Assembly (NCBI RefSeq): GCF_900120175.1
Contig: NZ_FQLF01000002.1
Span: 1,488,001-1,552,000 of the forward strand
Source: Oceanicoccus sp. KOV_DT_Chl
Lineage (GTDB): Bacteria > Pseudomonadota > Gammaproteobacteria > Pseudomonadales > Dasaniaceae
Length of the DNA: 64,000 bases
Direction: 5' to 3'
Position 1 is the first letter of the stretch, and each line of letters starts with the position of its first letter. The notes under the pieces were generated by a model. That model made no database searches, was not told the origin of the DNA, and was given only the letters and a program-made list of their open reading frames with translations. Shown one piece after another: positions 4,328-62,142 of this stretch. Both the position numbers and the translations under genes were made by a program.

Positions 4328-4349
4328 AATTTTCTCACTTCTCATAACT

Positions 4350-40262: not shown

Positions 40263-40272
40263 TTGGCCAAAT

Positions 40273-41346: not shown

Positions 41347-41437
41347 GTGTTAGCCTCTACTCGTGTCCGGCGCTATTCCTTGCGCCACTGCCCCCCATTG
41401 AGCTATTCCTACCGAGTATACATTGAGCCGCCGACCA

Positions 41438-43227: not shown

Positions 43228-44593
43228 TAATTTTTGATCCTTGGATATTTTTATTAACGTCGGCAGAGGCTTGTCGACTTGCTAAGACTTGCTGGTAGTA
43301 ATCCGTCATTTGCTTTGCCGCTCGCGTCCAACAAAATAATTGCTCAATACGCTGTCGCCCCGCTTCTCCCAACCGCTGACGCTTATCGGCATCATCCAAT
43401 AAGCTGGCAACAGCGGTAGCAATTGCGTGGCTGTCTTTAACAGGTACTTCTATACCTGCATCGCCAACCACTTCTGGCAACGCTCCGCCATTAGTTGACA
43501 CGACCGGTACCCCGCAGGCCATTGCCTCACCGGCAGGAAGACCAAAACCTTCATATAAAGACGGTACCACTACCACTTCAGCTTCGGCGTAGTATTTGAC
43601 TAACTGTTCGGTTGAAATACCGCTCACAAATTGAATACGGTCGGCGATATTTAACTGCGCGATCAATTGCTCGGTATCACCCCCGGGCTTTGGCTTGCCA
43701 ACCATGAGCAACTCGATAGCCGGGTAACTTGGTGCTAGCTCAGCTATTGCCTGCAACAAATAACGTACACCTTTTAATGGCGCATCGGCAGATGCAGTAG
43801 CCATAATTCGGTAACGCTTGGGCGCGACTTCGGGCATGGGCCGAAATTCATTGGTATCAATGCCGTTGTACACCAAATTGATACTGGCGGGGTCAATGTT
43901 GAAGGCCTCCGCGATATCCTGCTGTGAACACTCCGACACTGTCACCACATTATCCAGACGGGTGGCGACTTTCTTTTGCATGGTTAAAAAAGAATGCCAG
44001 CGACGAATCAGCAAACGCTCCGTCCAACTGTTAGCGGCATTCAATGCGATCCCCAAATCACTGGTAATCGGATGGTGGATGGTGGTTACCAACGGGAATT
44101 TGTGTCGCTGTAAATCCAACATACCCCAGCTAAGGCATTGATTATCATGAACAATATCGTAATGAGCGCCGTGAGCCTTGAGGTATTTAAACGCGCGACG
44201 GCCAAAGCAATGTGGCTCCGAGAATGCGCCGGTTAGTTTACCGCCCCATTCGATAATATTGGTCATTGAACGTAAATGGTGAAAACGAATAGAACCTAAA
44301 CCGGTTTCGAACAAATTCATCCCGGGCATTTTAATCAACCTAACGCGAGGGTCGACATGGGGATAAGGCTGTCCTGAGATCACATCAACTTCATGACCAG
44401 CCTCAACCAACGCCTTGCTTAAATACTTGATGTAAATACCCTGGCCGCCGCCATAAGGCTGACTGCGATAGCCTAGCAAACAAATTTTTAAGGGTTTAAT
44501 ACCGAGCGGGAGATCTTGCAGGTCCGTATTGGCAGCCTCTGTGGTGACATTAGCCACCGAGCTAATTGCGGATGCGACAGTTTCAGCTTGCAT
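43208..44593 (-). CDS. Glycosyltransferase family 4 (GT-B)
   Basis: A GT-B glycosyltransferase of about 461 residues. It has the Gly-rich N-terminal acceptor loop (YGGGQGIYIKYLSKAL) and the donor-binding E-x7-E motif in PSLYEGFGLPAGEAMACG, followed by VVSTNGGALPEVV. I use the ATG at 44593; an in-frame TTG at 44638 gives a longer form, and the conserved part begins only about 35 residues in. First gene of the GT-methyltransferase-toroid set. Sugar and acceptor unknown. Confidence 0.82.
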   Translation of the reverse strand: MQAETVASAISSVANVTTEAANTDLQDLPLGIKPLKICLLGYRSQPYGGGQGIYIKYLSKALVEAGHEVDVISGQPYPHVDPRVRLIKMPGMNLFETGLGSIRFHHLRSMTNIIEWGGKLTGAFSEPHCFGRRAFKYLKAHGAHYDIVHDNQCLSWGMLDLQRHKFPLVTTIHHPITSDLGIALNAANSWTERLLIRRWHSFLTMQKKVATRLDNVVTVSECSQQDIAEAFNIDPASINLVYNGIDTNEFRPMPEVAPKRYRIMATASADAPLKGVRYLLQAIAELAPSYPAIELLMVGKPKPGGDTEQLIAQLNIADRIQFVSGISTEQLVKYYAEAEVVVVPSLYEGFGLPAGEAMACGVPVVSTNGGALPEVVGDAGIEVPVKDSHAIATAVASLLDDADKRQRLGEAGRQRIEQLFCWTRAAKQMTDYYQQVLASRQASADVNKNIQGSKINANGEF

Positions 44594-44816
44594 AAGTAAT
44601 GTTGACAGGTCAAACGACTCTACCCATAGAACATCCAAAGATAGAGGACTAATGGAGGGGGGAGCGTGTAATCGCCGTACTGGGTTCCCAAGGTCAAAAA
44701 GTCGAGAAATTTTACTCGTAGCAGCCGGGGAAATCCAGCCATTACGCCATTCTGCCCAGTGGCTTTAATCCAATGGTAAGGATAAATCACAGAAATCTAA
44801 AGCAATGAAAGCGTGC

Positions 44817-46834
44817 CTAGTGTGATTTAGGAAAGTGGCCTTCTACAACATTATCCAATTCATCAGCTGGCTCTATGAGGCCTTGCTCCATTCGCCGCAA
44901 CCAAATGGCATCTGAAATACCATCTACCGGTTCAAATTCTTTCACCGCTCGCTGCAGGATAGCCTGAATGCTTTCACAATCATTGCTATCACAAGCCACC
45001 TTTAGTGCTTCCACATAGCTATCGATTTCTTCTTCAGACAGTAAGTCTTCCTCAGCACGCATAATTTTAGGGTGACCCGTGCCGGTAACATTATCGCCAA
45101 TCAAAAGTTCTTCATAAAGCTTCTCACCTGGCCGTAGACCGGTGAATTGGATTTCTATATCGCCCCTGGGTTGGGCTTTATCCTTCACTTCATAGCCCAT
45201 CAGGCGCACCAGTCGCCTAGCCAAATTTACTATCCGGACAGGCTCGCCCATATCCAGTACAAACACATCGCCACCTTTGCCCATGGCACTGGCTTGCAAT
45301 ACCAATTGCGCGGCTTCAGGGATGGTCATGAAATACCGAATGATATCTTTATGGGTTACCGTTACCGGCCCACCGTTAAGGATTTGCTGACGAAATAATG
45401 GGACTACCGAACCGGAAGAACCCAACACATTTCCAAATCGCACCATGCAAAAATCAATATGGTCGTACTTCGCCGAAAAAGCCTGCAGCAGTAACTCCGC
45501 CATCCGCTTGGATGCCCCCATTACATTGGTGGGCCTGACCGCTTTATCGGTCGAAATTAAGACGAAGGTTTTGACTCCGGCTTTAACGGCCGCGCGCCCT
45601 GCTGCCAAGGTACCAAATACATTATTGGCAACGCCCGCCACCACATTGTATTCAACCATTGGCACATGCTTATACGCTGCCGCGTGATAAACCGTCTCCA
45701 CCGCAAAGTCGGTAAAAATAGCTTCTAATCTTCGCCGATTTTGAACGGTGCCCAATAGCGGCACGATACGAATATTTTTGTCCAGCTTGAGGCGCTCGAG
45801 CTCTTTATTAATCTGGTACAGGGAGTACTCTGATATATCGTACAAAATCAAATCTTTAGGCTGACAGCGAACTATCTGACGACACAGCTCAGAACCAATC
45901 GAACCACCGGCCCCGTTACCATCACCACCTTGTTACGAATGCGCTGTTCAATTAATTCAGGGTCAGGTGGAATAGGGTCACGACCTAATAAATCTGCCAG
46001 CTCAATATCTTGTAATTGGCCAACCTTGGCTGATCCTGACATCAAATCACTGAACACTGGCACGGTTTTTACACAAACCAGCAGCTCTTCCAGTTCATCG
46101 ATAATTTCGCGGCGACGTAAATGGGTAATCGAAGGCATGGCCAAAAACACATGAGAAACGGAAAACTCTTCTGCCAGGCTGGATAACTGATCCGAGTGAT
46201 ACACCGAAATACCATTGATCACAGTACCCACCAACGCCGGGTCATCATCAACGAAAGCGACTGGATGAAAGTCTTTAGTAGGGTGCAAGGTATTGAGCAG
46301 CTGCCGGCCAGATACACCCGCCCCATAAATCACCACTTTATCCCCGCTCTTTCTTAGCACGCCGTGGTAAAACGAACGCACGATTAACCTCGAGCCACCA
46401 ATCAATAACAGCACCAAGGCCCAATAAATCAGCGGAGTCGACCGGGGGATTTCACTGCGGGTTAAAAAACCGGCAATAGCCATAATGACAGCAGACACCG
46501 TCACACCCTGAATAATAGTCAATATTGCCTGCTGCCCCATAAAACGAATCACAGCCCGATACAAGCCCAAACGCAGGAAAACAGCAGAACTGAACACCAT
46601 GGTAAGAATTAACGTAATAAAATCAGAGGCGTGGAACTGATAGCTGCCCCCACCCCAACGAATAAGGACTGCCAGCCACATGGCTACCGGGATAAAGCAC
46701 AAATCCAGAGCTAATAGTATGGATTGCTTCCAATAGCGAGGAGAAGAGAACAACGTTTCAATTGGCTGCCTAACACTGCGACGCCATTTAACAGCTTGTC
46801 GCTTGCGGCTGAATTTATTATTTTTTAGACCCAT
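44817..46834 (-). CDS. Membrane NDP-sugar 4,6-dehydratase (WbpM/PglF/CapD family), one frameshift
   Basis: About 672 residues when read through a -1 shift at the CCCC run 45911-45914 (GGGG on the coding strand). One added G restores the NAD site VTGAGGSIGSEL. The N-terminal part has four membrane spans (about residues 35-150), then a CoA-binding-like Rossmann domain, then the dehydratase domain with ISTDKAVRPTNVMGASK; the Met in NVMGASK replaces the usual Tyr, as in PglF. It probably makes UDP-4-keto-6-deoxy-HexNAc for the polysaccharide. It is the first enzyme of the surface-glycan locus on the minus strand, after the priming transferase. Confidence 0.85.
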
Positions 46835-46942
46835 AACGATGGCAGCTAACCCAATCTAGAAAACGCTACTGGCCGGAAGTGACCACATAAGATATCTAAG
46901 CATAGCAGCTAGTTAAGCTTGTATCAGCCCAAACCTACTAAA

Positions 46943-47509
46943 TCATTTACCCTGGATATGATCCCCTGCGCCGCGTCCAAGCACCGTGAGCAAAAGGTAC
47001 TTGAAGTACGCTCCCAGGGTTAGCGTATCCAGCATTTGTTGATCTATTGCTGCCAACCTGACGGGGTCAGACATATCGACACCATTCACCTGTGCCAAGC
47101 CGGTAATACCCGGGCGAACCAGCAACACCCCGCGCAGTGCACGCTCCTCGATAAGCTGCTGCTGGGAAGGCAAACATGGCCTGGGCCCAACTAAACTCAT
47201 CTCGCCTTTCAATACATTAATAAGCTGAGGCAATTCATCAAGCTTGGTTCTACGCAAAAAACGGCCCAGCCGGGTGACCGCACTGCTATCGACTTGATGA
47301 GTAGCCACGGAGGCTGTCGCAAGCGCCATGGTACGAAACTTGATCAAGGTAAAAAGGCGCTGGTTCTTTCCCACCCGTTGCTGAAAAAAAAGCGGCGACC
47401 CCGTATCGAACAAACCCAATAAAAATACAATCAACAAAATTGGAAGCGACAATGCCAACCCGGACAATGCCAGCACTAATTCCATTAGACGAAGTACCGG
47501 GCTGTTCAT
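46943..47509 (-). CDS. Priming sugar-phosphate transferase (bacterial sugar transferase)
   Basis: A 188-residue PF02397 enzyme (PglC/WcaJ core type) that puts a sugar phosphate on undecaprenyl phosphate. One membrane span near the start (about 8-32), then KFRTM, the TKLDELPQLINVLKGEMSLV catalytic region (Asp-Glu) and GPRPCLP. I start at the ATG at 47509, which overlaps the stop of the epimerase gene (ATGA). It is probably the first committed step of repeat-unit synthesis in this locus. Confidence 0.9.
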   Translation of the reverse strand: MNSPVLRLMELVLALSGLALSLPILLIVFLLGLFDTGSPLFFQQRVGKNQRLFTLIKFRTMALATASVATHQVDSSAVTRLGRFLRRTKLDELPQLINVLKGEMSLVGPRPCLPSQQQLIEERALRGVLLVRPGITGLAQVNGVDMSDPVRLAAIDQQMLDTLTLGAYFKYLLLTVLGRGAGDHIQGK

Positions 47510-48432
47510 TGAATCATCTTCCGCAAGGTATCTTCCAAGGTATATTTTGGCCGCCATTCCAATGTTTCCACGGTATGATGAATATCAACTTGCAAGTCGG
47601 CCAATAAGCGCTGAACCAATTCCTCTTTACCCAATAATCGAAATCCAAAGGTTAATAACGATAACGGCACTGGCCACAATCTGGACCTACCGCCCTGTAC
47701 ACTACTCATCACTGACAACAACTCCGACAGAGAATAGGATCGGCCATCAGACACCAAAAAGGTTTGATTGCTAGCGGCAGGATGCTCGATACACGTTACA
47801 ATTAAATCACACAGATTGTACACAGACACCATGTCACGACGATTATCCACCAAAGCAAATGGCAGCGGGATTGGTGAGCGAGCCAGATTTAGTAATCGTA
47901 AAAAATTAGCCTTAACGCCAGGCCCATAGACCAAAGGAGGCCGGATAATGACAAGCTCCATTGTAGAATTTCTGGCAATATCCTCCAGGTATCTCTCAGC
48001 CCGATATTTTGAGCCCGCATATTCATCCTTAGGAGACGCCACATCGAAACTAGAAAAGCTGGCACCTGTCAGCGTATTTTCACCATTCACTTTAATTGAG
48101 CTAATAAAAACAAACCGTTTTACACCGCTGGCTAAAGCCGCTTTTGCCAAGCGCACCGTCACATCAACATTGGCTCGATCATAGAGCTCCGCCTCATCAG
48201 CACTATCTGCATCCATCACATGTGCTCTTGCCGCCAGATGGATGACAACACTTACCCCTTCAAGAATGGCGGACCAGTTATTGAAGGTATAAAAATCACC
48301 CACCGCTAAAAATTGTGCATCCAGCCCCTGATTGCTGCGAGCCACTGCCACACACTCATGATTTTCAGCTTTCAGCATTGGCATTAAGTGCCTGCCCACA
48401 AAGCCACTAGCGCCGGTGATTAGTACTTTCAT
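47506..48432 (-). CDS. NAD-dependent epimerase/dehydratase (SDR)
   Basis: A 308-residue extended SDR with the N-terminal TGASGFVGRHL site and an active-site YAGSKYRAE (Tyr-x3-Lys). Its type is close to the 4-reductase/epimerase proteins found beside priming transferases (WbpV/FnlC-like order). It starts 3 bases inside the preceding GT4 gene and ends in the sugar transferase start, so it is tightly coupled. Likely reduces or epimerises the sugar that primes the repeat unit. Confidence 0.82.
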   Translation of the reverse strand: MKVLITGASGFVGRHLMPMLKAENHECVAVARSNQGLDAQFLAVGDFYTFNNWSAILEGVSVVIHLAARAHVMDADSADEAELYDRANVDVTVRLAKAALASGVKRFVFISSIKVNGENTLTGASFSSFDVASPKDEYAGSKYRAERYLEDIARNSTMELVIIRPPLVYGPGVKANFLRLLNLARSPIPLPFALVDNRRDMVSVYNLCDLIVTCIEHPAASNQTFLVSDGRSYSLSELLSVMSSVQGGRSRLWPVPLSLLTFGFRLLGKEELVQRLLADLQVDIHHTVETLEWRPKYTLEDTLRKMIQ

Positions 48433-49535
48433 TCCAATAACTGCTCAATTGCCGACAGCGTTGCTGCCGCAGTGGAATCCCAGGAAAAATGCGCCGCGTG
48501 CGATTTTGCGCTAGCACTAAGTTGAGCGTAGCGATCCTTATCTGAATCTATCAAACATATAGCATCAACCAACTCATCTATTGAGTAAGGATCAACTAGC
48601 AGCCCACCCTCCCCAACAACTTCAGGCATAGAGGATACGTTAGAGCTCACGACTGGCACGCCAAAGCTCATTGCCTCAATGATTGGCAAACCAAACCCTT
48701 CATATAAAGACGGCATCAATAACACATAGGCATTTTGGTAAAGGGACCTTAATTGTTCATTTTCTACCTTACCGAGAACAATGACATTGGCGTCAATACC
48801 ATATTCAATAACCAAATCAGCTATATCTACGCCACCCCATCCACTACCACCAACAATTTTTAACTCTTTTACTTTCAACCCTCTTTGCAGCGCTAACGAA
48901 AAAGCTTTTAAAATTCTATCTAAATTCTTTCTTGGCTCTAACGTTCCCACAAACAGAAAATATTCCGCATCACCAGTCTCAACAACACCGCCTGCATCAA
49001 CTGGCTGTAAATAAGATGCTAACGGAATAGTCACTATTTTTTCCGGCAGAACCAATAACTCTTTTTTTAATGATCCAGCAGTAGCACCAGAAATAGCAAT
49101 CACTTTAGCCGCGCTTTTAATAGAGCAAGGCATCAACAACCGCTCTAAATATCGCCCCAAAATTGTCATTGTATGAGGATAAAACTTCCATACCAAATCA
49201 TGAATAGTGACTATTTTTTTTACTTTGTTGGGTAACAGCAGAGGCAAGTGATGGCGAGGAGACCAAAAGACATCGATCGAATCTTTATGCGCCCAAACGG
49301 GAAAGACTAGCTGCGCAAAAAATGAACTGACAAAATTCGCACTACAATTACCTTCGCGAATATGCACATTAGGCAAAAGTTCTAACGAATGTATACAGGG
49401 ACGATCTAGATATAAATACCATTGATGCGGTGAATTGAAAGTTAACCTTTTCAGCAATTCATAAGTATACCGGGTGATGCCAACCATAGGCTGCGCTAAA
49501 GGCCGGGCATCCACTGCGATTTTTAGCGACCTCAT
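48429..49535 (-). CDS. Glycosyltransferase family 4
   Basis: A 368-residue GT-B enzyme starting VDARPLAQPMVGITRYTYEL, with PSLYEGFGLPIIEAMSFG (E-x7-E) and VVSSNVSSMPEVVGEGG. Mannosyl- or N-acetylglucosaminyl-type donors are common in this group, but the sugar is not readable. Overlaps by 4 bases with genes on both sides. Confidence 0.87.
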   Translation of the reverse strand: MRSLKIAVDARPLAQPMVGITRYTYELLKRLTFNSPHQWYLYLDRPCIHSLELLPNVHIREGNCSANFVSSFFAQLVFPVWAHKDSIDVFWSPRHHLPLLLPNKVKKIVTIHDLVWKFYPHTMTILGRYLERLLMPCSIKSAAKVIAISGATAGSLKKELLVLPEKIVTIPLASYLQPVDAGGVVETGDAEYFLFVGTLEPRKNLDRILKAFSLALQRGLKVKELKIVGGSGWGGVDIADLVIEYGIDANVIVLGKVENEQLRSLYQNAYVLLMPSLYEGFGLPIIEAMSFGVPVVSSNVSSMPEVVGEGGLLVDPYSIDELVDAICLIDSDKDRYAQLSASAKSHAAHFSWDSTAAATLSAIEQLLE

Positions 49536-50677
49536 CTGGAGAGTGTCTCCGTCACTGGGATTGAGGCCTCCGCGATAACTTTTTTATACAAGCTAACATA
49601 CTGCTCGCCAATAATATCACCAGTAAAGTAATCCTCATAACGGCGACGGGCATTAGCTCCCATCTCAGCCGCCTCTTGGGAATGGTAGTAAATATAATCC
49701 ATTGCCTCGCGCAGTTCTTTGGATGAACCTGGCGAAACTACCAAGCCCGTTTCCTTATCGATATTAACGTGACTGGTACCGGTACCCACTTCTGTGGAAA
49801 TAAGTGGCCTACCCATCATTGCTCCCTCAACTAAAGTCATGCCAAATGCCTCGGAACGCAGATAAGATGGGAACACTATAGCTCTGGATAATTTGATTAA
49901 TGTAACCTTCTCATCATCGCTGATAAACCCGGGGAAGATAACATTTTTCAATTGCAGCTCTGCGGCCTGCTTTTTAAGTTCTTGCTCAATCGAACCTGAG
50001 CCGGCAATAACAACGTTATAGTCGGCACCTTTCATAGCATTTAAAAGAATGTGTAAACCCTTGTAATACCGAAACACGCCGACAAAGAGGAAAAAATTTT
50101 CACCATATTGCTCACGCATAGCAGCTAATGTTGCGTCCTTGCAATCAGGATAAGATTCTTCGTTAATCCCAAGCGGTATTACTTCAACTTTTTCTGAATA
50201 TTCACTGAGCACAGAACTGGAAGCGAAATAATTCTGTGAGGTTGCCACGACTCTCGAAGCGCCACGGAGAAATTGCTTCATCAGCGGGCGATATAGCTTA
50301 CCCAGTCGCTTCTGACGCACTATATCGGAGTGGTAGGTAATAATATAAGGCTTGGTACCGCCAGCTAATAGCTCTAACAAGTCAGCAAAGGGCCAAGGGA
50401 AATGGTAGTGAACTATATCGCACCACTCTAATAGTTCACGAAACTGAGGCAATATAGTGAAGCTGATATCGCAGGATTTAATACTGACGTGTCGTGGTGA
50501 GCGAAAAACTGTAGCCTCTTCACGCTCAACTGTAGCTTCACCAGGTTCACGTTGTAGCGTCAACACACGGTTTTCCGTATTGAAAGGGGCAGTACTTAAA
50601 CATATCTGGCGAATGGCCTCTTCCAGTCCGCCTTGCGTATCCGGGTAGTAGGTGCGATAAAAATGCAGTACTCTCAT
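49532..50677 (-). CDS. Glycosyltransferase family 4
   Basis: A 381-residue GT-B enzyme starting with FYRTYYPDTQGGLEEAIRQI, with the donor part FVGVFRYYKGLHIL and the acid-rich region SEAFGMTLVEGAMMG. It is the first gene of the minus-strand glycan set, divergent from the GT2 gene with 88 bases between. Donor and acceptor unknown. Confidence 0.87.
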   Translation of the reverse strand: MRVLHFYRTYYPDTQGGLEEAIRQICLSTAPFNTENRVLTLQREPGEATVEREEATVFRSPRHVSIKSCDISFTILPQFRELLEWCDIVHYHFPWPFADLLELLAGGTKPYIITYHSDIVRQKRLGKLYRPLMKQFLRGASRVVATSQNYFASSSVLSEYSEKVEVIPLGINEESYPDCKDATLAAMREQYGENFFLFVGVFRYYKGLHILLNAMKGADYNVVIAGSGSIEQELKKQAAELQLKNVIFPGFISDDEKVTLIKLSRAIVFPSYLRSEAFGMTLVEGAMMGRPLISTEVGTGTSHVNIDKETGLVVSPGSSKELREAMDYIYYHSQEAAEMGANARRRYEDYFTGDIIGEQYVSLYKKVIAEASIPVTETLSR

Positions 50678-50765
50678 AACTCGAAAATGCCCATTGAAGC
50701 TTAGGCCTAGATAGCCAAACGACGAACATTCTACACTAATTTAGAATTAAACAGCAGAGCCAAGC

Positions 50766-51548
50766 ATGTCACCGTACCTATCTATTATAACCCCCTGCCT
50801 GAATGCTGAAAAAACCATCAAGCAAACGATAGATAGCGTATTCCAGCAAGAGCATCATGGGATTGAATATATTATTATTGACGGCGGATCTACTGACGGC
50901 ACGCTTGATATCGTAAAAGAATACGCCCAAAAACTGGAGATTATCGTATCCGAACCTGATCAAGGAATTAGCGATGCCTTTAACAAAGGAATAGCTTTAG
51001 CTAAAGGGGACTATATTGCCATTATAAATGCCGACGACTACTACGAACCCGGAGCGTTCAATACCATTGTCGCTACGGCGCTAGAACATAATCAACCCGA
51101 TGTGATTCATGGTGGGTTACGCTACATCCCCATTAGCGGGGATAGCTATTTGGAACAACCCAATATTGAACGCATTTGGCGCTATATGTCAGTCTTCCAC
51201 CCTACTATGTTCATTCATCGAAGGGCTTATGAAAGTATCGGCTTGTATCGACTCGACTTCCGTTTTGCAATGGATTCTGAATGGGTGCACCGAGCTATCG
51301 CAAATCGACTAAGGTTTGTACAGAGTAACAACGTCATTAGTAATATGCGCTTAGGCGGTGCCAGCCACAAATACCTACTCCGCAGCTTGCTGGAATTTCG
51401 CCAATCCGCCATTGCTCATGGCAACAACCGGAAGCTAGCAAATTTCTACTTCGGCAGACAGCTTATTATTCAAACCTTAATCAATATCAATTGGGTGAAG
51501 CGACTACTTCTTTATAGAAGGCACATTATAAGACCCCACCGCCCGTAA
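50766..51548 (+). CDS. Glycosyltransferase family 2
   Basis: A 260-residue GT-A enzyme with SIITPCLNAEKTIKQTIDSV, IIIDGGSTDGTLD and the metal-binding DDYYEPG region (IINADDYY). It resembles colanic-acid-type WcaA/WcaE proteins. It is separated from the phosphonate operon by 348 bases that contain only a fragment of another gene. Confidence 0.87.
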   Translation: MSPYLSIITPCLNAEKTIKQTIDSVFQQEHHGIEYIIIDGGSTDGTLDIVKEYAQKLEIIVSEPDQGISDAFNKGIALAKGDYIAIINADDYYEPGAFNTIVATALEHNQPDVIHGGLRYIPISGDSYLEQPNIERIWRYMSVFHPTMFIHRRAYESIGLYRLDFRFAMDSEWVHRAIANRLRFVQSNNVISNMRLGGASHKYLLRSLLEFRQSAIAHGNNRKLANFYFGRQLIIQTLININWVKRLLLYRRHIIRPHRP

Positions 51549-52180: not shown

Positions 52181-53479
52181 ATGAAAAAAGTTTACGTAGG
52201 CATGAGCGCCGACCTCATTCATCCCGGTCATATTAATATTATTCACGAAGCAGCCAAGCTGGGCGAAGTCACTGTAGGCCTGCTAACTGACAAAGCTATA
52301 GCAAGCTATAAACGGCTTACATTTTTAACTTACGAACAGCGCAAAAGCGTTGTTGAAAATATTAAAGGTGTGGCAAACATTACACCCCAAACAACCCTTG
52401 ACTACCGTGACAATCTTATTGCAATCAAACCAGATTATGTTGTACATGGCGATGATTGGAAAACTGGCATTCAAGCCAAAACCAGACAACAGGTTATCGA
52501 CACATTGGCGACTTGGGGAGGAGAACTGATTGAAGTCGGTTATACAGCAGGGATATCGTCTTCTCAGCTACACGAGAGCTTAAAAGAAGTTGGGACCACG
52601 CCTGACATCCGATTAAAGCGCTTGCGCCGCCTTATCGCCGCCAAGCCCGTAGTACGAGTTTTAGAAGCTCATACGCCACTGTGCGGTCTGATTATTGAGC
52701 ATGCAGAAGCTATTGTCGACGGCGCCAAAAGGGAGTTCGACGCCATGTGGTCAAGCAGCCTGACCGACTCAACTGCTAAAGGTAAGCCTGATATTGAAGC
52801 ACTCGATCTAACTTCACGCCTCCAAAATATTAACGATACGTTTGAGGTAACAACCAAGCCATTAATCTATGATGCCGATACTGGCGGCATACCTGAACAC
52901 TTTGCCTTTACGGTGAAAAGCCTAGAGCGCGTTGGAGTTTCGGCAGTTATCATAGAAGATAAAGTCGGCCTAAAGAAAAATTCTTTATTTGGTAATGATG
53001 TTGATCAACAACAAGCGAGCATTGAAGAGTTCTGCCATAAAATTCAGGTTGGAAAAAGAGCCCAAATCACTGAAGACTTTATGATCATTGCACGGATTGA
53101 AAGTTTGATACTGGAACAAGGCATGGACGATGCCATTAATCGCGCAAAAGCTTATATTGACGCCGGCGCTGACGGTATTATGATTCACAGCCGACATAAA
53201 AGCCCAGCTGAAGTATTGGAGTTTTGCAGCATCTATAGGAAGCTTGAAAAACAAGTGCCACTAATTGCGGTACCTTCAAGTTATAACAGTATTACTGATA
53301 CCGAGCTCGCTGAAGCTGGAGTTAATGTTGTTATTTACGCAAACCATATGTTACGTGCAGCATACCCCGCCATGAACAACGTCGCACACTCCATACTACA
53401 ACATGGCCGATCTGAGGAGTGTAAAGATCAGTGCATGCCCATTAAAGATATTCTCGATTTAATTCCAGGCACAAGATAA
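52181..53479 (+). CDS. pepM: Cytidylyltransferase-phosphoenolpyruvate mutase fusion
   Basis: A 432-residue two-domain protein. Residues 1 to about 135 form a nucleotidyltransferase with HPGH (14-17) and AGISSSQL (123-130), as in PntC-type phosphonate cytidylyltransferases. From about 150 comes PEP mutase, with DADTGG (231-236) and the diagnostic [10 protein letters not shown] (259-268, pattern EDK-x5-NS), forming the C-P bond of phosphonopyruvate from PEP. PEP mutase without decarboxylation is unfavourable, and the decarboxylase follows 4 bases downstream. The fusion suggests that the final phosphonate is activated as a CMP ester. It is the key gene for the phosphonate operon. Confidence 0.93.
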
Positions 53480-53483
53480 TATT

Positions 53484-54611
53484 ATGTTAAGTCCTCAATT
53501 ATTTTTTGATTCTCTCAGTCAGGCCGGCGTAAATTACTTCACCGGTGTGCCTGACTCACTACTCAAAACCTTCTGCGCCTATGTTACCGATAATGTGTCG
53601 GCGAAGAATCATGTTATCGCCGCCAACGAAGGCGCTGCTGTCGGTTTGGCAATGGGCCACTATCTTGCTTCAGGTGAAGTACCTTTGGTATACCTGCAGA
53701 ATTCTGGACTAGGCAATACCATTAACCCCCTCACATCTTTAGTCGACCCTGAAGTATATAGCATACCTATGTTACTTATGATTGGCTGGAGAGGCGAGCC
53801 CGGTGTAAAAGATGAGCCCCAGCATGTAAAGCAAGGGCGCGTCACATTAAAAGTGCTTGAAGCACTAGAAATTCCTTACACCATTATTGACGGCAGCGAA
53901 GACCATATTGCTACCACCATTGACGACGCTGTTCGATCAGCCCAAACTACCGGCGGAGCCCATGCCCTAATTATTCGAAAGAATAGTTTTGAGCACTACA
54001 GTATCAGCGATAAAATTCAGCCAAGCTATGGATGGAACAGAGAGGATGCTATTAAGCAGATAGTTAATCACCTGGACGAACGCGATATTATTATCGCCAC
54101 AACGGGCATGGCATCACGAGAACTTTTCGAATATCGAGCCCAGCAAGGCCAAGGCCATGAACGGGACTTCCTGACTGTTGGAGGAATGGGGCACGCCTCC
54201 CAAATTGCGCTAGCAATCGCAAGCCAAAACTCCAACCGCCGTGTCATTTGTATTGATGGCGACGGCGCAGCACTGATGCACTTAGGTTCGATGGCTATTA
54301 ATGGTATGTCTGCATTAAGCAACTTCAAACACATTATTATTAATAATGGTGTTCATGACTCTGTTGGCGGCCAACCCACTGTTGGCTTTGATATCAACCT
54401 TACCAACATTGCAACAGCGTGTGGTTATAGCTACGCAACCACCTGCGAATCCAGTGATACTCTAGCGCCCGCTATGAAAGCACTTTTTTCGAGCAATGGG
54501 CCAGCAGCGATAGAGGTTCGTGTGAACAAAGGTCATCGCAGCAATCTTGGCAGGCCCACCTCAAGTCCGCAGGACAACAAACAAGCATTTATGCAATTTT
54601 TGCAAAGCTGA
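53484..54611 (+). CDS. ppd: Phosphonopyruvate decarboxylase
   Basis: A 375-residue thiamine-diphosphate enzyme that converts phosphonopyruvate to phosphonoacetaldehyde, drawing the PepM reaction forward. ThDP glutamate region ANEGAAVGLAMG is near residue 45, and GDGAALMHLG followed about 25 residues later by NNG is the ThDP/Mg motif. It is coupled to pepM, 4 bases upstream, and followed by the dehydrogenase gene 12 bases later. Confidence 0.93.
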   Translation: MLSPQLFFDSLSQAGVNYFTGVPDSLLKTFCAYVTDNVSAKNHVIAANEGAAVGLAMGHYLASGEVPLVYLQNSGLGNTINPLTSLVDPEVYSIPMLLMIGWRGEPGVKDEPQHVKQGRVTLKVLEALEIPYTIIDGSEDHIATTIDDAVRSAQTTGGAHALIIRKNSFEHYSISDKIQPSYGWNREDAIKQIVNHLDERDIIIATTGMASRELFEYRAQQGQGHERDFLTVGGMGHASQIALAIASQNSNRRVICIDGDGAALMHLGSMAINGMSALSNFKHIIINNGVHDSVGGQPTVGFDINLTNIATACGYSYATTCESSDTLAPAMKALFSSNGPAAIEVRVNKGHRSNLGRPTSSPQDNKQAFMQFLQS

Positions 54612-54623: not shown

Positions 54624-55763
54624 ATGCAGCAAGAGTTTTTGGGTAGAGGCAGCTCAAGTAACATCGTTGACGTACTGACAACACTCAATGCAAAAAGAAT
54701 CTTATTGGTAACGGGTAAAGATTCTTACAGTAGTTGCGGAGCAAAAGCGGTATTTTCACAACTATTAGCGCCCTATCAAGTGAGCACTTTCGATAACTTT
54801 TCACCCAATCCGGAGTTTAGTGAAGCCCTCGAAGGTACAAAGCTCTGTCAGCAGATAAATGCAGATGTCATTATTGCCGTCGGCGGCGGCAGCGCAATTG
54901 ATATTGCAAAATCAATTGCCGCATTTACTGCGGTACCCGGTGGTGAACTTGAGCTTGCTACAGGAAAGTCGAAACTGGAGTCTGTAACATTACCGGTAAT
55001 AATAATTCCTACAACCGCAGGCACCGGTAGTGAGTCTACCCACTTTGCTGTTATCTATGTAGACGGTAAAAAGTACTCCCTAGCATCCCCCTTTTTATTG
55101 CCGGCTATAGCTATACTTGACCCTCAATTTACTGACGCTTTGCCAAAATATATAACGGCCTGTACGGGATTTGATGCACTTTGTCAGGCTACCGAATCCT
55201 TTTGGGCAACTGGAGCCACCACAGAAAGCCGTAATTTCGCCAAACAAGCGATTACATTGTTAATGCAAAACTTACGCAAGGTCGTTAATGACCCGGATAA
55301 AGAATCCCGGGAAAACCTTTTGCGAGCAGCGAATTTTGCCGGCAAAGCCATCAACATTAGTAAAACGACAGCGCCCCATGCGCTTTCCTATACTATCACC
55401 AGCCTTTTTGGTATTCCCCACGGTCACGCCGTAGCAATGACACTTGGAGCTTTTTTTCCTCACCATGATAGAGCCAATGAAACATTACTGAGTGCTGGTG
55501 TTACCGATGAAGAATTCACTCAAACTCGCACCGAGCTTTTACAACTGCTAGGTGTTGATTCTGGCAATGCCGCAAAATCCTTGTGGTATACCTTAATGGC
55601 TGATTGCGGGCTGAACCTCTATTTAGGCGACCATCATATTGCCAACTCACCTGACATTAAGACCATTATCGCCGGGATTAATATGGAGCGCTTAGGCAAT
55701 CACCCCGTCCAATTAAATACATCCGAGCTAGTAGATTTATTAAAAAGTATTCCTACGCATTAA
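54624..55763 (+). CDS. Iron-containing alcohol dehydrogenase, probable phosphonoacetaldehyde reductase
   Basis: A 379-residue Fe-type dehydrogenase with GGGSAIDIAKS and IPTTAGTGSESTHFAV, and metal-binding His residues in TTAPHALSY and GIPHGHAVAM. In other phosphonate loci (PhpC/FomC type) such enzymes reduce phosphonoacetaldehyde to 2-hydroxyethylphosphonate (HEP). No aminotransferase is present to make 2-aminoethylphosphonate instead. The assignment rests on operon position; the fold is sure. Confidence 0.82.
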   Translation: MQQEFLGRGSSSNIVDVLTTLNAKRILLVTGKDSYSSCGAKAVFSQLLAPYQVSTFDNFSPNPEFSEALEGTKLCQQINADVIIAVGGGSAIDIAKSIAAFTAVPGGELELATGKSKLESVTLPVIIIPTTAGTGSESTHFAVIYVDGKKYSLASPFLLPAIAILDPQFTDALPKYITACTGFDALCQATESFWATGATTESRNFAKQAITLLMQNLRKVVNDPDKESRENLLRAANFAGKAINISKTTAPHALSYTITSLFGIPHGHAVAMTLGAFFPHHDRANETLLSAGVTDEEFTQTRTELLQLLGVDSGNAAKSLWYTLMADCGLNLYLGDHHIANSPDIKTIIAGINMERLGNHPVQLNTSELVDLLKSIPTH

Positions 55764-55775: not shown

Positions 55776-56942
55776 ATGGTCTTTGATAGCTTAAAGCTTT
55801 TTTTTCGCGCCAAACGAGATATGAAAGCATTCAACGCCCTACCACAAAAAGACCGTAAAATTGTTTTTTATGCCGAGGATACTCATTCAAAGATTCATTT
55901 TGAAGGTATCATCTCTCAACTAACTGCTAAATATGGCGAAACGATTTGCTACCTGACATCCGCTCACGATGACACCGTATTGCACTCATCCGATGATCGG
56001 ATAAAAAAGTTTTATATTGGGGATGGCCTTATCAGGAGCGTAGCATTCAGAACGCTAAAGGCCGATCTCGTAATCATGACAATGCCCGACTTGGAGAATT
56101 ACCACCTTAAACGGTCTCAGACTTATCCTGTACATTATCTATATCTTTTTCATGCCATGGTTAGCACTCACTCTAACTATCGCCAGGCAGCCTTTGATCA
56201 TTATGATACTGTATTCTGCACTGGGCCCTTTCAAATAAACGAAATCAGGGCGACCGAAAAAATTTACGGGCTAAAACCCAAGCACCTGTATAAAGATGGT
56301 TATAGACGCTTGGAGTCGATTATAAATGATGTAAAAAAGCATCGTGCTAGCGTCGGCGAGCCTTCTGTCAACGGGGTAAAAACCGTTATCATAGCGCCCT
56401 CCTGGGGTGAAAATGCAATTTTGGAAAGCTGCGGAATCAAGACCATTAGCGTACTGCTAGAGGCGGGCTATCGAACAATCGTTCGCCCCCACCCGATGAC
56501 AACCAAGCATAAACCTGAGCTTATTAACTCAATCATCAGTCAGTTTGCTAATCATCAACGGTTTCAACTTCAAACTGATATTCGAGATCATAAAACTTTA
56601 TATGAAAGCCACGTCATGATCAGTGACTGGTCAGGTGTTGCCATGGAGTATGCTTTTGCCTGTGAGCGACCAGTCATTTTTATTGATGTACCAAAAAAAT
56701 GTAACAACCCTGAAGCTGATAGAGTCACACAAATACCCATTGAGGTATCGATAAGAGATAAAATTGGCAAAATTATTCCGCCCAATCAACTCGATTTACT
56801 TCCCAAAGCTATCGAAGATATCTATCAGGATAGCGAAAAATTTATCGAACAAATTCGACAAACCAGAGACGTCTCTGTATTTAATTTAGGCAACTCACTG
56901 AATGGTGCAGTCGAGGAAATATTAAAAATCGCAAATAAATAA
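55776..56942 (+). CDS. CDP-glycerol glycerophosphotransferase (TagB/TagF)-like transferase
   Basis: A 388-residue GT-B type transferase. Sequence VIIAPSWGENAILESCGI and VRPHPMTTKHKPEL, then SDWSGVAMEYAFACERPVIFID are typical of Glyphos_transf (teichoic acid) enzymes, which use CDP-linked donors. Here the partner cytidylyltransferase is fused to PepM, so the donor is probably CMP-HEP, transferred to a growing glycan. It is the last gene of the phosphonate operon. Sequence identity to a specific characterised member is not assured. Confidence 0.85.
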   Translation: MVFDSLKLFFRAKRDMKAFNALPQKDRKIVFYAEDTHSKIHFEGIISQLTAKYGETICYLTSAHDDTVLHSSDDRIKKFYIGDGLIRSVAFRTLKADLVIMTMPDLENYHLKRSQTYPVHYLYLFHAMVSTHSNYRQAAFDHYDTVFCTGPFQINEIRATEKIYGLKPKHLYKDGYRRLESIINDVKKHRASVGEPSVNGVKTVIIAPSWGENAILESCGIKTISVLLEAGYRTIVRPHPMTTKHKPELINSIISQFANHQRFQLQTDIRDHKTLYESHVMISDWSGVAMEYAFACERPVIFIDVPKKCNNPEADRVTQIPIEVSIRDKIGKIIPPNQLDLLPKAIEDIYQDSEKFIEQIRQTRDVSVFNLGNSLNGAVEEILKIANK

Positions 56943-56963: not shown

Positions 56964-57677
56964 CTAATTGTAATTCAGCCGCTGTAGTATATTGTGCAAC
57001 CTACTATTAATTTCAGCACTCGCCTCACCAGTAAGCGCACTTTTATGCTCACCAGGTAGCATTCTTCTTTTATGTGTAGTTCCATCAGCGGTATCTAAAG
57101 ATACCTCGGCCTTAAAATAATCATAAACAGCCGCCTGTATATTTTCGGATAAGTGTAATGGATCCAGAAACGATGAAATCCAACTATCAGAATCACCTAA
57201 AAAAATATCTTCGTATTTCAAAAATGTAACATTAGGTTTATCTAAATACTCGTCAATATAAATATCATAGCGACTAGCTAAATCTTCCAGCCGCTGTAAA
57301 CAGAAGCCATCAATTCCTTTTTTAATCCGCCTTTCCCTCTCCTCTTCAGGAATACCACCATGTATTTTGGTAAATGAATGAAACATAGAGACAAGACAAT
57401 CTCGCGGATCTCTTAAAACAAGGACAATATCATGATCAAACTTGACATTTAGGGGGCGACGTAGTGGGCCAACAATGCCTGAACTAATTTCATTATATAG
57501 CTGGCTCAATTCACCGCTATTAGCGGGGTTGCCATCTGGTATATTAACAAAGCGACCCTGATCAGAATTATTTGCAGAATAAAACTTATAATTTATTTCC
57601 AGATCAATCACTTTTTTTAATAATTTATAAACAAGCATTGATCCGCTTTTATGTACTGTAAAATAACCTACCTTCAT
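56964..57677 (-). CDS. Sulfotransferase-family protein
   Basis: A protein of about 237 residues with a 5' PAPS loop-like VHKSGSMLVYKLL at the start and a 3' phosphate motif VLRDPRDCLVSMFHSF near residue 110. It probably moves sulfate from PAPS to a carbohydrate. I choose ATG at 57677; one five codons earlier is possible. It converges on the phosphonate operon with 21 bases between, and codon use and AT content match the surface-glycan genes. Confidence 0.75.
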   Translation of the reverse strand: MKVGYFTVHKSGSMLVYKLLKKVIDLEINYKFYSANNSDQGRFVNIPDGNPANSGELSQLYNEISSGIVGPLRRPLNVKFDHDIVLVLRDPRDCLVSMFHSFTKIHGGIPEEERERRIKKGIDGFCLQRLEDLASRYDIYIDEYLDKPNVTFLKYEDIFLGDSDSWISSFLDPLHLSENIQAAVYDYFKAEVSLDTADGTTHKRRMLPGEHKSALTGEASAEINSRLHNILQRLNYN

Positions 57678-57773
57678 ATAAACTCGCAACATTAAATAGA
57701 ATTGATAAATATCGTCTCTAACATGATTTATTAAATAAATTCGCTATAAAATTTGGTTTGAACATAACCAAAT

Positions 57774-58931
57774 TCAAATCTTTATAAACTGCTGCTGAAT
57801 TGCATGTAATATATTAGCCAAAGTCCAATATAAAACCATCACTGCAGGAAACGGGTAAAAAAGCACCAAAAATACAATCGCCATTAAATAAAGTTTCAAA
57901 CGCTGATGGCCAACCTCCTGCGGGGATGCATACTTATTCTTAAACATAAGCGCTGAAAGGATTGACACTATCGTCATCAAAATAGGCAATAAATTAAAGG
58001 TTCCTCCCAATAAGGGTAAATCTTTTTGAAACTCGAAAAATGCATCTGGATACGCCAAGTTATTTATCCAAAGAAAATCACTGCCATTGAAATGAGGCAT
58101 CTCACCTAAAGCATTAAATACAGCAATCAGTATAGGGATCTGTATGGCCGTCCCCAACATAGGCTTTAAGGTATAAAACGGTGAAATCCCCAAAGATTTA
58201 TGCGCTGCCATAATACGCTCATGCGCTTGTTCGCCATCATGCTTGGATTTTATTTCTTTAATCTGAGGCTCTAATAGAGACTGGTATTTACTTACGGCAC
58301 GTTGAAAGTTGACCACAAGAACAGAAACGGGAATAAGTAAAACTTTTACCGCTATCGAAAAAACGATAACTGTAAGCCCCCAACTAAGGTCAAAAACCTG
58401 CTGTATGGAGACTAAACTCCACTCGGCAGATTTAGCCAATAATGCCAACCAGCCCCATAAGTGCTGATATTTACCTGCCTCAAATATTGCCCTAGCATCC
58501 TTAGAAAAAACGGTATAACGAATGTTAGGTGTTCGCTTCTCAAATGGTTGAAAAAATATAGCTTCGTCTGATACTTTAACTACCACATCCTCAGTACTGA
58601 AAACAGCAACGTTAAAACGGCCCCGTACAGTAATCCTGTTCTTATTTGGTAGCGCCACAAGTTCACCAGGCTGGATATTTTCAACATCATTGCCTTCTGA
58701 TAAAACAAACGTTACAGCATTTAAATAGGTCGCCAAACCGGAAAATTTATAGCTATCTGCCACGCCTAAAGACTTGATATCAACCCGCGCACCAGCGCCT
58801 CCTTGCCATTCACACTCTAAACTATCTGCGATCTGCGGAGTTCCATTAAAACCTTCTGCACAGGACGCCGCCCATAAAGATGATACTAAATGTATATTTA
58901 ATAAAATAAATAGCAATATAAAACGTATCAA
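57774..58931 (-). CDS. YidC/Oxa1-family insertase paralogue within the glycan locus
   Basis: A 385-residue protein, much shorter than E. coli YidC (548). It has a signal-like start ending SSLWAASC, a small periplasmic domain of about 140 residues (usual P1 is larger), and the Oxa1 core with WGLTVIVFSIAVKVLLIPVS, the charged loop, and the late membrane spans. The conserved groove Arg (position 366 in E. coli) is Lys196 here by alignment of IVRGIMYPLT with AVKVLLIPVS. It probably is not the main YidC, which normally lies beside dnaA/mnmE. It lies next to a membrane phosphatase-superfamily gene. Confidence 0.83.
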   Translation of the reverse strand: MIRFILLFILLNIHLVSSLWAASCAEGFNGTPQIADSLECEWQGGAGARVDIKSLGVADSYKFSGLATYLNAVTFVLSEGNDVENIQPGELVALPNKNRITVRGRFNVAVFSTEDVVVKVSDEAIFFQPFEKRTPNIRYTVFSKDARAIFEAGKYQHLWGWLALLAKSAEWSLVSIQQVFDLSWGLTVIVFSIAVKVLLIPVSVLVVNFQRAVSKYQSLLEPQIKEIKSKHDGEQAHERIMAAHKSLGISPFYTLKPMLGTAIQIPILIAVFNALGEMPHFNGSDFLWINNLAYPDAFFEFQKDLPLLGGTFNLLPILMTIVSILSALMFKNKYASPQEVGHQRLKLYLMAIVFLVLFYPFPAVMVLYWTLANILHAIQQQFIKI

Positions 58932-59005: not shown

Positions 59006-61089
59006 CTACTTTCCAACCACGACATAGACCCTGGAATACAATGCCGATAATTTTAAATGGCCATTATTGATAGTATTGGTCTTGCTACTTTGAAAAACCA
59101 ATGTATTGACACCATCATTTATCGTGGCTAAATCAACAGGAAAACTCAATGTTACCCACTCACTTTTCTTGATAGTAAATGTTTTTGAAGCTGAACCATT
59201 AACAAAAAGGGTAAACTGCTGCGGCAAATTAACTGAAGGCACATGAATTTTTGCTTTAATAAAAGCAGTGTTATCTGGCAACGCCATTTTTAACACCTGC
59301 TTGTCACCCGCCCCCCAACTTCCTTTAGAGCCCGTCCATCCCGAGCCAAAAGCCAACTTCGAATCATGGCCATCGAAATTTAAACTCAACACAGAGCCAG
59401 AAGCCGCTTTCTTGCCTCCGGGGTATATAGTGCCGCTGTTCACCCAATTTCCAGCATCGCTGGCATCACCCGTAATTGTATAATTTTCTAATTCAGGTAT
59501 GTAGGCACTCTTTGCAACCTCTGACGACCATGGGTGATAACGGTAAACCCGCTTACGACTAAGATCATCTGTCATCCGAAGAATTGATTCTCCATAACTT
59601 TCGAAACCATCAATCTTCAAAGCATCCAATATTGTCGCGGGGATATCTACATTACTGGTAAGCAAGTCAGACACCTCAAATGCAGCGCTGACATTAGGGT
59701 ATTTAATCATTTGCGTGGCTAACGCACTATCCGCTAATACTGTATGAATACCATGATCAGAAGATAATACAATTAAAGAATTATCATACACTTTCAGGAC
59801 CTTTAATTTATCAACCAATGAAAAAAACAAATCTAAAGAGCACTGAGCTTGGTTGCTGTACGCTAATCGAGACATAGACTGCTTACCAATAAACGAGCAT
59901 GTCTCATCTAAAACTATAGGCAGGTGCGGGAGAACAACATGAATAAACTTGTAGCGAGGTGCAGGCTGACTACCCACATATAAATGCTTGGTAAAATACT
60001 CAAGGTTATCCCTTGCAACTGCCGGCCTAAAATTTAGCTCTTCGTTATTAAATAAACTGGAGATCAGCCATTTTTCGTCGTTATACACATAGTGTTTAAT
60101 TATATTAGGGCATATCTAAATAAGGAATAATCCGCTAATTTATAAGCAACTCGCTTGCTATCGGCCAATGATGAGTCTAGCGGAGAAATTGAATCTTCAC
60201 ATATAACACGCCCGTCCTTACAAAAATTTGATGGCAAGAAATTTTTTTGAGTCAATAAGTCGATAGCATAACCCTGCCGATGCAACTCTTTATAATACGC
60301 ATCATTTTCCATAGCATTATCGATAAACTCACGCATCGGGCTTGTATTATCGTAAGCTTGGCCGCTCAATAAGGCAGGGAGAGAGAATTGAGTGACAGGA
60401 AAAGCGCCTATATTTTCCTTATAGAACACAAAATCGTCAACATCCCGCTGAAAAGATTTATCAGCAAGGATATTAAAAGCAACATCTGACTGCAGCTGGT
60501 CCAGTAATATATGGATGACATTGAATGTAGGCGATAACTCAAAAAGGGTGTTATCGACACCTGCGTCAGACAAAGGCAGTTTAGCGTTGAATTCATCAGA
60601 ACGCTCTATATATCGAACTATACAACTAGCGCTGACGATAAGAATGATAACAATAGAAATAAATGTAGCTTGTTGACTAACTTTTTTATGGAATACTATA
60701 CCGGCTAAAATCAACCCCGCCCAAACAGGCAGCTCAATCCAGTTGCGCGCTGTGAACTTTGTAAAATCGATATCTGTTCCATCCAAATGACCGTAGCTTA
60801 TAAAAAGCATATTACCTTGCAGGTAAACAGCAATAGCTATAACAAAAACAAATGATATGAAAACAGACCGCAGAGCGGAAGGGACTACTATCGCCGCACA
60901 AATACTTACGCCCAAACAAAGAACAAAAAAACCAAGCAGATTAATAAGAAGCGCTTCTAGCGGTAAAGAATATTCATTTATATTGGCAAGATAAATATCA
61001 AAAGGACCAAATATAAATAAGCTTGAAGCGATTAATAGGCCACTACAAGAAACTGAGAGTACGCAGGAAGCTCTGGACATTGATACCAT
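59006..61089 (-). CDS. Membrane alkaline-phosphatase-superfamily protein (sulfatase-like), one frameshift
   Basis: About 694 residues when read through a -1 shift at the GGG run 60108-60110 (CCC on the coding strand), which joins LFRYA to PNIIKHYVYND. Five membrane spans (about residues 8-170) precede an alkaline-phosphatase-superfamily domain with VIHILLDQLQSD (metal Asp) and SSDHGIHT (metal Asp-His). A C-terminal beta-sandwich of about 150 residues follows (GSVLSLNFDGHDSKLAF, then DGVNTLVFQ). The layout is like LTA-synthase/EptA-type transferases. It may place phospho or phosphono groups on the glycan at the periplasmic face; this is inference. The nucleophile Thr/Ser position is not clear to me. 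Confidence 0.7.
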
Positions 61090-61716: not shown

Positions 61717-62142
61717 CTATGATTTTCTTCCGTTAAACACCATGCGGTTAATAAAAAACATTATTGGGACTGTTAAAAAAATAACCACTAATGGTGCGAA
61801 CCTTTCATCAGCTTCAAAAATATCGACCATTACATATAGAAACAACATACCCAGACAATACTGCACTAAATATACCATAGGATAAACTGTCGCAGTTTTC
61901 ATTCCGGGCTTGCTCCGAAAAACATAAATTGCATTTAAAAAATACCCAATAACTATACCAACAGCAAAAGTAATCGTATATGACAACTGATACGGCATAA
62001 AAATTATCAAAAACAGATAAAATATATATGTAATTACCGTATTTAAAGCACCACTAATAAAAAAACGGACACCAGACACTAAAACTTCTTCCCAAGAATA
62101 AATCACAAAGGGCCCACCGACCCTTCCACTTCGCCCCAACAC
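61717..62142 (-). CDS. GtrA-family membrane protein
   Basis: About 141 residues with four hydrophobic spans of the GtrA family (RFFISGALNTVITYIFYLF, then FAVGIVIGYFLNAIYVF). Members flip or help move undecaprenyl-linked sugars. The start at 62142 is GTG and uncertain; a GTG 12 codons later (VIYSWEE) has a better GGAAGG region upstream. Downstream neighbour: the FdtA-like gene, 1 base away. Confidence 0.8.
   Translation of the reverse strand: MLGRSGRVGGPFVIYSWEEVLVSGVRFFISGALNTVITYIFYLFLIIFMPYQLSYTITFAVGIVIGYFLNAIYVFRSKPGMKTATVYPMVYLVQYCLGMLFLYVMVDIFEADERFAPLVVIFLTVPIMFFINRMVFNGRKS

Follow-up and report, generated by a model that had tools for sequence, protein, structure and literature searches.

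A short YidC paralogue encoded in a glycan locus of Oceanicoccus sp. KOV_DT_Chl very probably belongs, together with a TagF-like and an LtaS-like transferase, to a three-part module. We propose, with a probability of roughly 0.4, that this branch of the YidC/Oxa1 family is a dedicated headgroup-lipid scramblase, not a protein insertase, physically coupled to a trans-membrane TagF-LtaS relay that places phosphonate or phosphoramidate on surface glycans. Taken by itself, the idea that the YidC paralogue is the scramblase step between the TagF-like and LtaS-like enzymes has close to an even chance of being correct. The sequences themselves show which parts make up the module, that these co-occur, that donor genes are interchangeable among the loci and that YidC is fused to its partners.

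A short YidC paralogue distinct from canonical YidC

We analyzed a 64,000-nucleotide stretch of the Oceanicoccus genome (the window), which contains the paralogue gene and the following sites within it.

57774..58931, minus strand: YidC paralogue with a signal-like hydrophobic N-segment, a small periplasmic beta-sandwich, a five-TM YidC core and a very short C-tail
58344..58346, minus strand: codon of Lys196, the basic groove residue
58197..58238, minus strand: residues 232-245, DGEQAHERIMAAHK in the window gene, the cytoplasmic C1 hairpin tip, the best conserved among the segments compared across short paralogues

The open reading frame has 385 codons and starts with TTG. Its product matched PF02096 at 102.3 bits (cut-off 35) and TIGR03592 at 116.5 bits (cut-off 84.3). 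The N-terminus resembles a signal segment, and the periplasmic domain is cut down to a beta-sandwich remnant of about 115 residues (approximately residues 37-151); the large P1 domain of Gram-negative YidC, which is not required family-wide, is absent. A preliminary description of this DNA had called the protein short, with a reduced periplasmic domain, and it was right on both counts. The C-tail is very short, and in most short paralogues the C-terminus follows directly after TM6.

Because a single-sequence model of the paralogue was poor (pLDDT only 44), the fold was predicted again with an alignment of ten sequences, which gave a pLDDT of 80.8 and a pTM of 0.76. The core of this model aligned with Bacillus halodurans YidC (3wo6; Z 16.9, rmsd 2.8, 203 residues), and the model also matched E. 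coli YidC (6al2; Foldseek E 2.3e-12). Its periplasmic beta-sandwich aligned with mutarotase- and galactosidase-type domains. The paralogue is a YidC/Oxa1 family member by profile, by its five-TM core fold and by its basic groove residue.

Residue 196 was Lys and lay in the groove column, as the preliminary description had noted. The same column held Lys in all 44 canonical yidC genes examined, which came both from relatives and from paralogue genomes, the copy in the same genome included, so that Lys196 is the ordinary state and no sign of changed function. We therefore rejected 'Lys for Arg' as a mark of altered function, and the suggestion that the groove Arg might align elsewhere, which the position of residue 196 contradicts, is beside the point. 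Across 20 paralogues the column was always basic (15 Lys, 5 Arg).

Conservation among the 14 short paralogues was highest, of the segments compared, at the C1 hairpin tip (DGEEAHNRIMAAHK; mean majority-residue fraction 0.92), with values of 0.63-0.78 for the TM segments. In 14 canonical YidCs the hairpin tip scored 0.78, and TM3 was the highest among four segments compared (0.92). From this pattern, we propose the tip DGEQAHERIMAAHK as a putative partner-docking site.

The genome, 99.96% complete with 4.83 Mb on 7 contigs, contains three PF02096 genes: a full-length yidC adjoining an mnmE-like gene (named by eye), the window paralogue, and a 1052-residue YidC-LtaS-like fusion that the earlier note had missed. 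The presence of a full-length yidC bears out the earlier view of the window gene as a paralogue. Canonical YidC sequence was found in all 14 short-paralogue genomes, full-length in 13 of them (the window's included) and as a 75-residue fragment at a contig end in the remaining one (G757). In these 14 genomes the short form is not the only YidC copy, a possibility that the preliminary description had raised. One genome (G351) carried two full-size canonical YidC genes, on contigs 51 and 46.

In a phylogenetic tree, 24 canonical copies formed one group (100/100), on a branch of length 2.93, and the 14 short paralogues formed another (96/88). On this separation we rejected a recent duplication of the host's own yidC as the origin of the paralogue. 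The row of the YidC-LtaS fusion was too long (5.41) for placement, and the L067 and L070 rows were long as well.

Short paralogues are uncommon, and the genomes that have them are scattered. The short form was found in four of 390 genomes of the order, with a divergent longer form in a fifth (G366). A class-level search of 369 genomes found it in the window's genome and in G743, and seven more genomes gave longer or weaker matches. Scanning 84,980 species genomes by pattern yielded at least ten loci, one of which was a contig already known from G040. The set of distinct short-paralogue loci comprised 14: the window, L036, L037, L038, L040, L042-L049 and L064. The records are metagenome-assembled genomes labeled with gammaproteobacterial names, Burkholderiaceae, Rhodospirillaceae and, once, Candidatus Polarisedimenticolaceae (Acidobacteriota). 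The last of these (L040) has a paralogue that clusters with gammaproteobacterial ones, which points to gene transfer or mis-binning. Among the viral contigs scanned, there were no relatives of the paralogue, of the YidC-TagF fusion, or of the fusion and TagF alignments. Among the plasmid matches listed for the paralogue, both kinds of fusion and the window TagF-like protein (two of these searches covering 30 of 42 and 20 of 43 matching records), we found YidC-type insertases, stray sulfatases or nothing.

The TagF-like and LtaS-like partner genes

The genes around the paralogue in the window are as follows.

55776..56942, plus strand: TagF-like (Glyphos_transf) transferase; PF04464 at 30.9 bits against a cut-off of 22.1; no predicted TM
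56964..57692, minus strand: sulfotransferase-like gene between the TagF-like and YidC genes; PF00685 at 34 bits against 22
59006..60088, minus strand: C-terminal half of an LtaS-like gene, lying in a different frame from its N-terminal half
60100..61089, minus strand: N-terminal half of the same gene, an LtaS-like membrane transferase (alkaline phosphatase superfamily), with four predicted TMs and the Thr motif VTQFSLPALLSG

A TagF-like gene lay on the same stretch as the short paralogue in 12 of the 14 loci. We assembled an alignment (A3) of TagF-like proteins from neighbors of the paralogue; by hydropathy none of its 14 members has a TM, and the window protein was taken as cytoplasmic. RPHP and SDWSG segments are conserved in the family. 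Searched against the 390 genomes of the order, the alignment gave hits at E < 1e-160 in exactly the four short-paralogue genomes; a random draw would give this match with a chance of ~1e-9, and because A3 was built from paralogue neighbors, the result describes the specificity of a subfamily and is no unbiased survey. A weaker second hit in the window's genome (G000; 2.9e-59) adjoins the YidC-LtaS fusion, and a weak TagF-like hit (6.7e-34) came from one genome, G233, that gave no match to the paralogue.

The genomes of L044 and L045 had no TagF-like match at E ≤ 1e-5. These two are sister rows in the tree with Halieaceae labels, and the L045 neighborhood is not of a glycan type, with a thiolase, a luciferase-like monooxygenase, PPDK and an aminotransferase among the neighbors. 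For the longer paralogues (L065-L070), a TagF-like gene was nearby in three (L065, L070 and L069/L127), on another contig in G583, and absent in G366 and G528. As controls, 45 loci around canonical yidC, with one gene represented twice, gave no TagF or LtaS hit within the ~3.5 kb covered per locus.

The preliminary description had placed a membrane phosphatase-superfamily protein beside the paralogue. An LtaS-like gene does stand there, but the open reading frame at 59006-60088 is only its C-terminal half; we rejected it as a complete protein, since the N-terminal half is the open reading frame at 60100-61089, in another frame. The frame break, near 60088-60103, leaves the Thr motif in the N-terminal half and DHG in the C-terminal half. 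The two halves correspond, in order, to the front and rear portions of homologues that form one ORF (such as L036, L040 and L064). The N-terminal half, which has no Pfam match of its own, aligned to residues 10-295 of the 585-residue L064 homologue, and the C-terminal half (PF00884 at 20.4 bits, under the cut-off of 25) aligned to residues 322-552 of the 698-residue L036 homologue. The window copy may be inactive, or the frame break may be a sequencing error.

The co-occurrence with a gene of this type that had been suggested earlier was borne out: an LtaS-like gene was on the same stretch in 10 of the 14 short-paralogue loci. It was not found on the examined stretches of L038, L044, L045 and L048. 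The genome of L038 (G040) gave no match to the LtaS-like alignment at E ≤ 1e-5, and L048 had only a weak match (4.8e-10), ~12 kb off on the same contig. In a scan of 14 LtaS-like ORFs, 13 had three to five TMs before the catalytic part, the exception being a 503-residue ORF of L067 with none. All 14 contained DHG; ten had the Thr motif, one had Ser, and three had no nucleophile motif. Scores for the LtaS family NF053595 (cut-off 970) were below the cut-off for both the L036 member (22.1 bits) and the YidC-LtaS fusion (40.2 bits). LtaS was nevertheless the best non-YidC NCBIfam match of these two and the best, albeit weak, PDB match of the L036 member (2w8d, E 0.0055). The L040 and L133 members had no NCBIfam match at 1e-6.

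No ORF in the other paralogue loci had the sulfotransferase-like gene of the window as its best reference match. The upstream glycan locus (37918-51548) contains genes for an HldE-like kinase/cytidylyltransferase, a FabH-like synthase, group 1 glycosyltransferases and polysaccharide epimerases/dehydratases. A small membrane protein at 61717-62142 (minus strand), GtrA-like by eye, adjoins FdtA-like and FemAB/GNAT-like genes and is a further candidate for handling lipid-linked sugars.

Interchangeable donor genes

The window also carries a putative donor module for a phosphonate.

52181..53479, plus strand: cytidylyltransferase-PEP mutase fusion, predicted to form the C-P bond and the CMP-phosphonate; PF01467 and PF13714 over cut-off
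53484..54611, plus strand: predicted phosphonopyruvate decarboxylase; phmmer 600 bits to the L037 homologue
54624..55763, plus strand: iron alcohol dehydrogenase; best NCBIfam match TIGR03405 at 181.7 bits, below the cut-off of 423.7

The L037 homologue of the decarboxylase matched TIGR03297 at 498.6 bits against 312.5. Judging from gene order, the dehydrogenase is presumed to be a phosphonoacetaldehyde reductase giving 2-hydroxyethylphosphonate. The cytidylyltransferase-PEP mutase shares its architecture with Fom1 as presented in passages of PMC6697681, and by analogy with Fom1 the set is the one expected for CMP-2-hydroxyethylphosphonate (PMC6697681, same passages). These three genes occurred together in three of the 14 loci (the window, L037 and L064).

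Five further loci (L036, L040, L042, L048 and L049) carry an alternative trio, which consists of a PPDK-like kinase of ~1000 residues, a class-I glutaminase-like protein and a nucleotidyltransferase. In L036, the best NCBIfam match of the glutaminase-like protein was gamma-glutamyl-CDP-amidate hydrolase (130 bits, short of the 250 required), and LicC was nearest to the nucleotidyltransferase in the PDB. The L040 kinase exceeded the cut-off of NF004508, a model that names no function. This trio probably makes CDP-phosphoramidate. Judging from context, its genes presumably correspond one by one to Cj1416-Cj1418, which they resemble, and the kinase would be a glutamine kinase. In Campylobacter, Cj1416-Cj1418 and Cj1415 make CDP-phosphoramidate 3'-phosphate, according to passages of PMC11800397.

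An adenylyl-sulfate-kinase gene of Azospirillum, used as a single query, had no match at E ≤ 1e-3 on the paralogue-locus stretches, and an Azospirillum methyltransferase had no match in the paralogue loci either. The Azospirillum kinase, an APS-kinase-like gene, is presumably of the Cj1415 type. No recognized donor module was present in the other six loci (L038, L043, L044, L045, L046 and L047), with extra flank checked for L038, L043, L046 and L047.

Donor genes also occur apart from the module. The phosphoramidate-type trio lies on three plasmids. On one of Azospirillum it is accompanied by the adenylyl-sulfate kinase, and the 26 kb covered gave no match to TagF, YidC or LtaS; on one of Roseovarius it stands alone, likewise without such a match across 27 kb; and on one of Vibrio it lies with a different glycerophosphotransferase-family gene and with no YidC match in 31 kb. 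YidC is therefore not required for every such pathway. The swapped donor sets suggest that different cytidylyl donors are plugged onto one conserved TagF-YidC-LtaS module.

Several additional features of the phosphoramidate-type loci were observed. On the Vibrio alfacsensis plasmid pYa108, the probable phosphoramidate cluster (L128 13914-19663) lies near an XrtA/PEP-CTERM exosortase locus. A formyltransferase-domain protein (~450 residues where complete) recurs in loci of this type (L036 5513-6886 and L040 11007-12407; also L042, L048, L049 and L127). In the L040 kinase-like protein (2218-5205), the first 205 residues weakly resemble the neighboring cytidylyltransferase.

Fusions of YidC to both partners

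The YidC-LtaS-like fusion of the window's genome (L004 5864-9022, on G000 contig 1) begins with a YidC core of ~215 residues, followed by five predicted TMs and a sulfatase-fold domain. It was seen once in 369 genomes. The gene lies in a second glycan locus of the genome, where it adjoins a second TagF-like gene whose product has two predicted TMs.

A fusion of the other kind, a YidC core followed in one frame by a TagF-like domain, was found on three human-gut contigs (L131, L132 and L133). Of the L132 and L133 proteins, one is 53% and the other 42% identical to that of L131, over 96-97% of its length. All three exceeded the PF02096 cut-off and two exceeded that of PF04464; the third matched TagF references by phmmer (219 bits). 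The L131 fusion adjoins genes for PEP mutase, phosphonopyruvate decarboxylase and an aminotransferase. Two LtaS-like ORFs follow the L133 fusion, one of them cut by the contig end, and the L132 fusion is preceded by an LtaS-like ORF known from phmmer only (36 bits), with no Pfam match at 0.001. The three contigs were deposited as Bacteriophage sp. and are likely mislabeled bacterial DNA.

The C-terminal end of YidC is expected inside the cell. With this topology, the fused TagF-like domain would be in the cytoplasm, and the five further TMs of the other fusion would place its LtaS-like domain outside. YidC is, in these predicted proteins, the element joined to both partner enzymes.

A proposed trans-membrane relay and its alternatives

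LtaS-type enzymes act outside and take groups from lipid headgroups. A group borne on CMP or CDP is made inside and has to get across to the outer leaflet, for which a lipid is the simplest carrier; as LtaS-type enzymes use lipids, a step is needed that joins the cytoplasmic CMP donor to the periplasmic lipid-using enzyme. We propose the following relay; its donor chemistry, its charged lipid, the scrambling step and the final passage of the group to a glycan are what we infer. The donor module would make a cytidylyl-activated group, CMP-2-hydroxyethylphosphonate in the window and probably CDP-phosphoramidate in relatives, and the cytoplasmic TagF-like enzyme would charge a membrane lipid with it. 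The YidC paralogue, bound to the TagF-like enzyme through its cytoplasmic hairpin, would then offer the lipid headgroup its hydrophilic groove as a slide toward the outer leaflet. There, the LtaS-like enzyme, with its periplasmic Thr nucleophile, would shift the headgroup from the lipid to a glycan and release the lipid. E. coli YidC scrambles lipids in liposomes, according to passages of PMC10491306.

In favor of the relay we count the co-occurrence of its parts, the fusion of YidC to both sides, the scrambling by E. coli YidC, the retained fold and charged groove residue, and the conservation peak at the hairpin tip. Against it stand the two loci without a TagF-like gene (L044 and L045), the four with no LtaS-like gene on the examined stretch, the six of 14 without a recognized donor module, the plasmids whose donor genes have no YidC nearby, the single occurrence of the fusion to LtaS, and the broken LtaS-like gene of the window. 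The retained C1 hairpin and groove also suit an insertase.

The preliminary description had left the choice between a dedicated insertase and a repurposed lipid- or glycan-handling protein. Both kinds of fusion favor the lipid or glycan side; the insertase reading stays as a fairly unlikely alternative, in which the paralogue would insert or fold the polytopic LtaS-like enzyme, or a different membrane protein encoded in the glycan locus, and take no part in lipid handling. The family, fold, groove residue and C1 hairpin of the paralogue agree with this, as does the polytopic LtaS-like gene that shares most of the stretches. However, canonical YidC sequence accompanies the paralogue in every genome checked, and the commonest partner is the TagF-like protein, which has no predicted TM and would need no insertase, yet is fused to YidC three times. 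Fusion to the supposed client, the LtaS-like enzyme, would make a one-use insertase, and L038 has a TagF-YidC pair in a genome without a detectable LtaS-like match. The near loss of the C-tail in most short paralogues also argues against insertion, as the C-tail and C2 loop of YidC form a ribosome-binding site (passages of PMC7618853).

The conservation peak at the hairpin tip, and the absence of a TM anchor from the A3 TagF-like proteins, set against the two TMs in the TagF-like neighbor of the YidC-LtaS fusion, would also fit an inactive YidC fold that serves as a membrane anchor or scaffold, holding the TagF-like enzyme at the membrane near the LtaS-like enzyme. We regard this as improbable, since a charged groove residue in 20 of 20 paralogues and the conservation of the TMs go beyond the needs of a mere anchor. 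A second general YidC, or a relic, with no glycan link and an accidental neighborhood, would account for the paralogues of L044 and L045 and the non-glycan surroundings of the latter, but it is very hard to reconcile with the 12/14 association across variously labeled bacteria, the exact match in four genomes of the order, the swapped donor modules and the two kinds of fusion.

Relation to known systems and significance

The paralogue resembles the YidC/Oxa1 insertases (6al2, 3wo6) in its PF02096/TIGR03592 core, five-TM fold, basic groove residue and C1 hairpin. It differs in its separate position in the tree, reduced periplasmic domain, almost absent C-tail and own hairpin motif, and in a locus and fusions tied to phospho-transferases. 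Second YidC copies of Gram-positive bacteria (SpoIIIJ/YqjG, YidC1/YidC2) are short, stand beside a housekeeping copy and have been studied as insertases; the paralogue is similarly an extra short copy next to a housekeeping one.

The partners likewise combine known and unfamiliar traits. Most of the LtaS-like proteins scanned resemble LtaS/EptA transferases in their N-terminal TMs, predicted alkaline-phosphatase-type domain and Thr motif, and all contain DHG, but they match weakly in sequence and are linked to YidC and TagF-like proteins. The window TagF-like protein exceeds the PF04464 cut-off and has RPHP and SDWSG segments, like the CDP-glycerol/ribitol transferases TagF/TarL; proteins of its type form their own subfamily with no predicted TM, and we infer that their donor is probably a CMP-phosphonate or CDP-phosphoramidate.

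On the donor side, five of the 14 loci have genes resembling the glutamine kinase, gamma-glutamyl-CDP-amidate hydrolase and cytidylyltransferase of the Campylobacter O-methyl phosphoramidate capsule system (Cj1415-Cj1418, Cj1421/Cj1422). In contrast to that system, the paralogue loci have no APS-kinase-like or methyltransferase match in the searches above, and transfer presumably proceeds through the TagF-like, YidC and LtaS-like proteins. The fusion of CTP_transf to PEP mutase, with a decarboxylase, is shared with the Ppm-fused cytidylyltransferases Fom1 and PntC (passages of PMC6697681). The main text of that paper mentions neither 'YidC' nor 'flippase'.

Among the literature matches listed, with subscription papers mostly outside their scope, there was no description of a TagF-YidC-LtaS module, and the trans-membrane relay is apparently undescribed as far as we found. 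How cytoplasmic CMP- or CDP-linked phosphonate and phosphoramidate groups reach surface glycans is, as far as we found, not settled, and it is still a question whether cells make dedicated use of the lipid scrambling that YidC shows in liposomes. The module would make both questions testable in one small gene set, for which the fused YidC proteins are ready single-chain constructs for structure and assay. If the proposed relay is true, the insertase family would gain a role in lipid or glycan chemistry.
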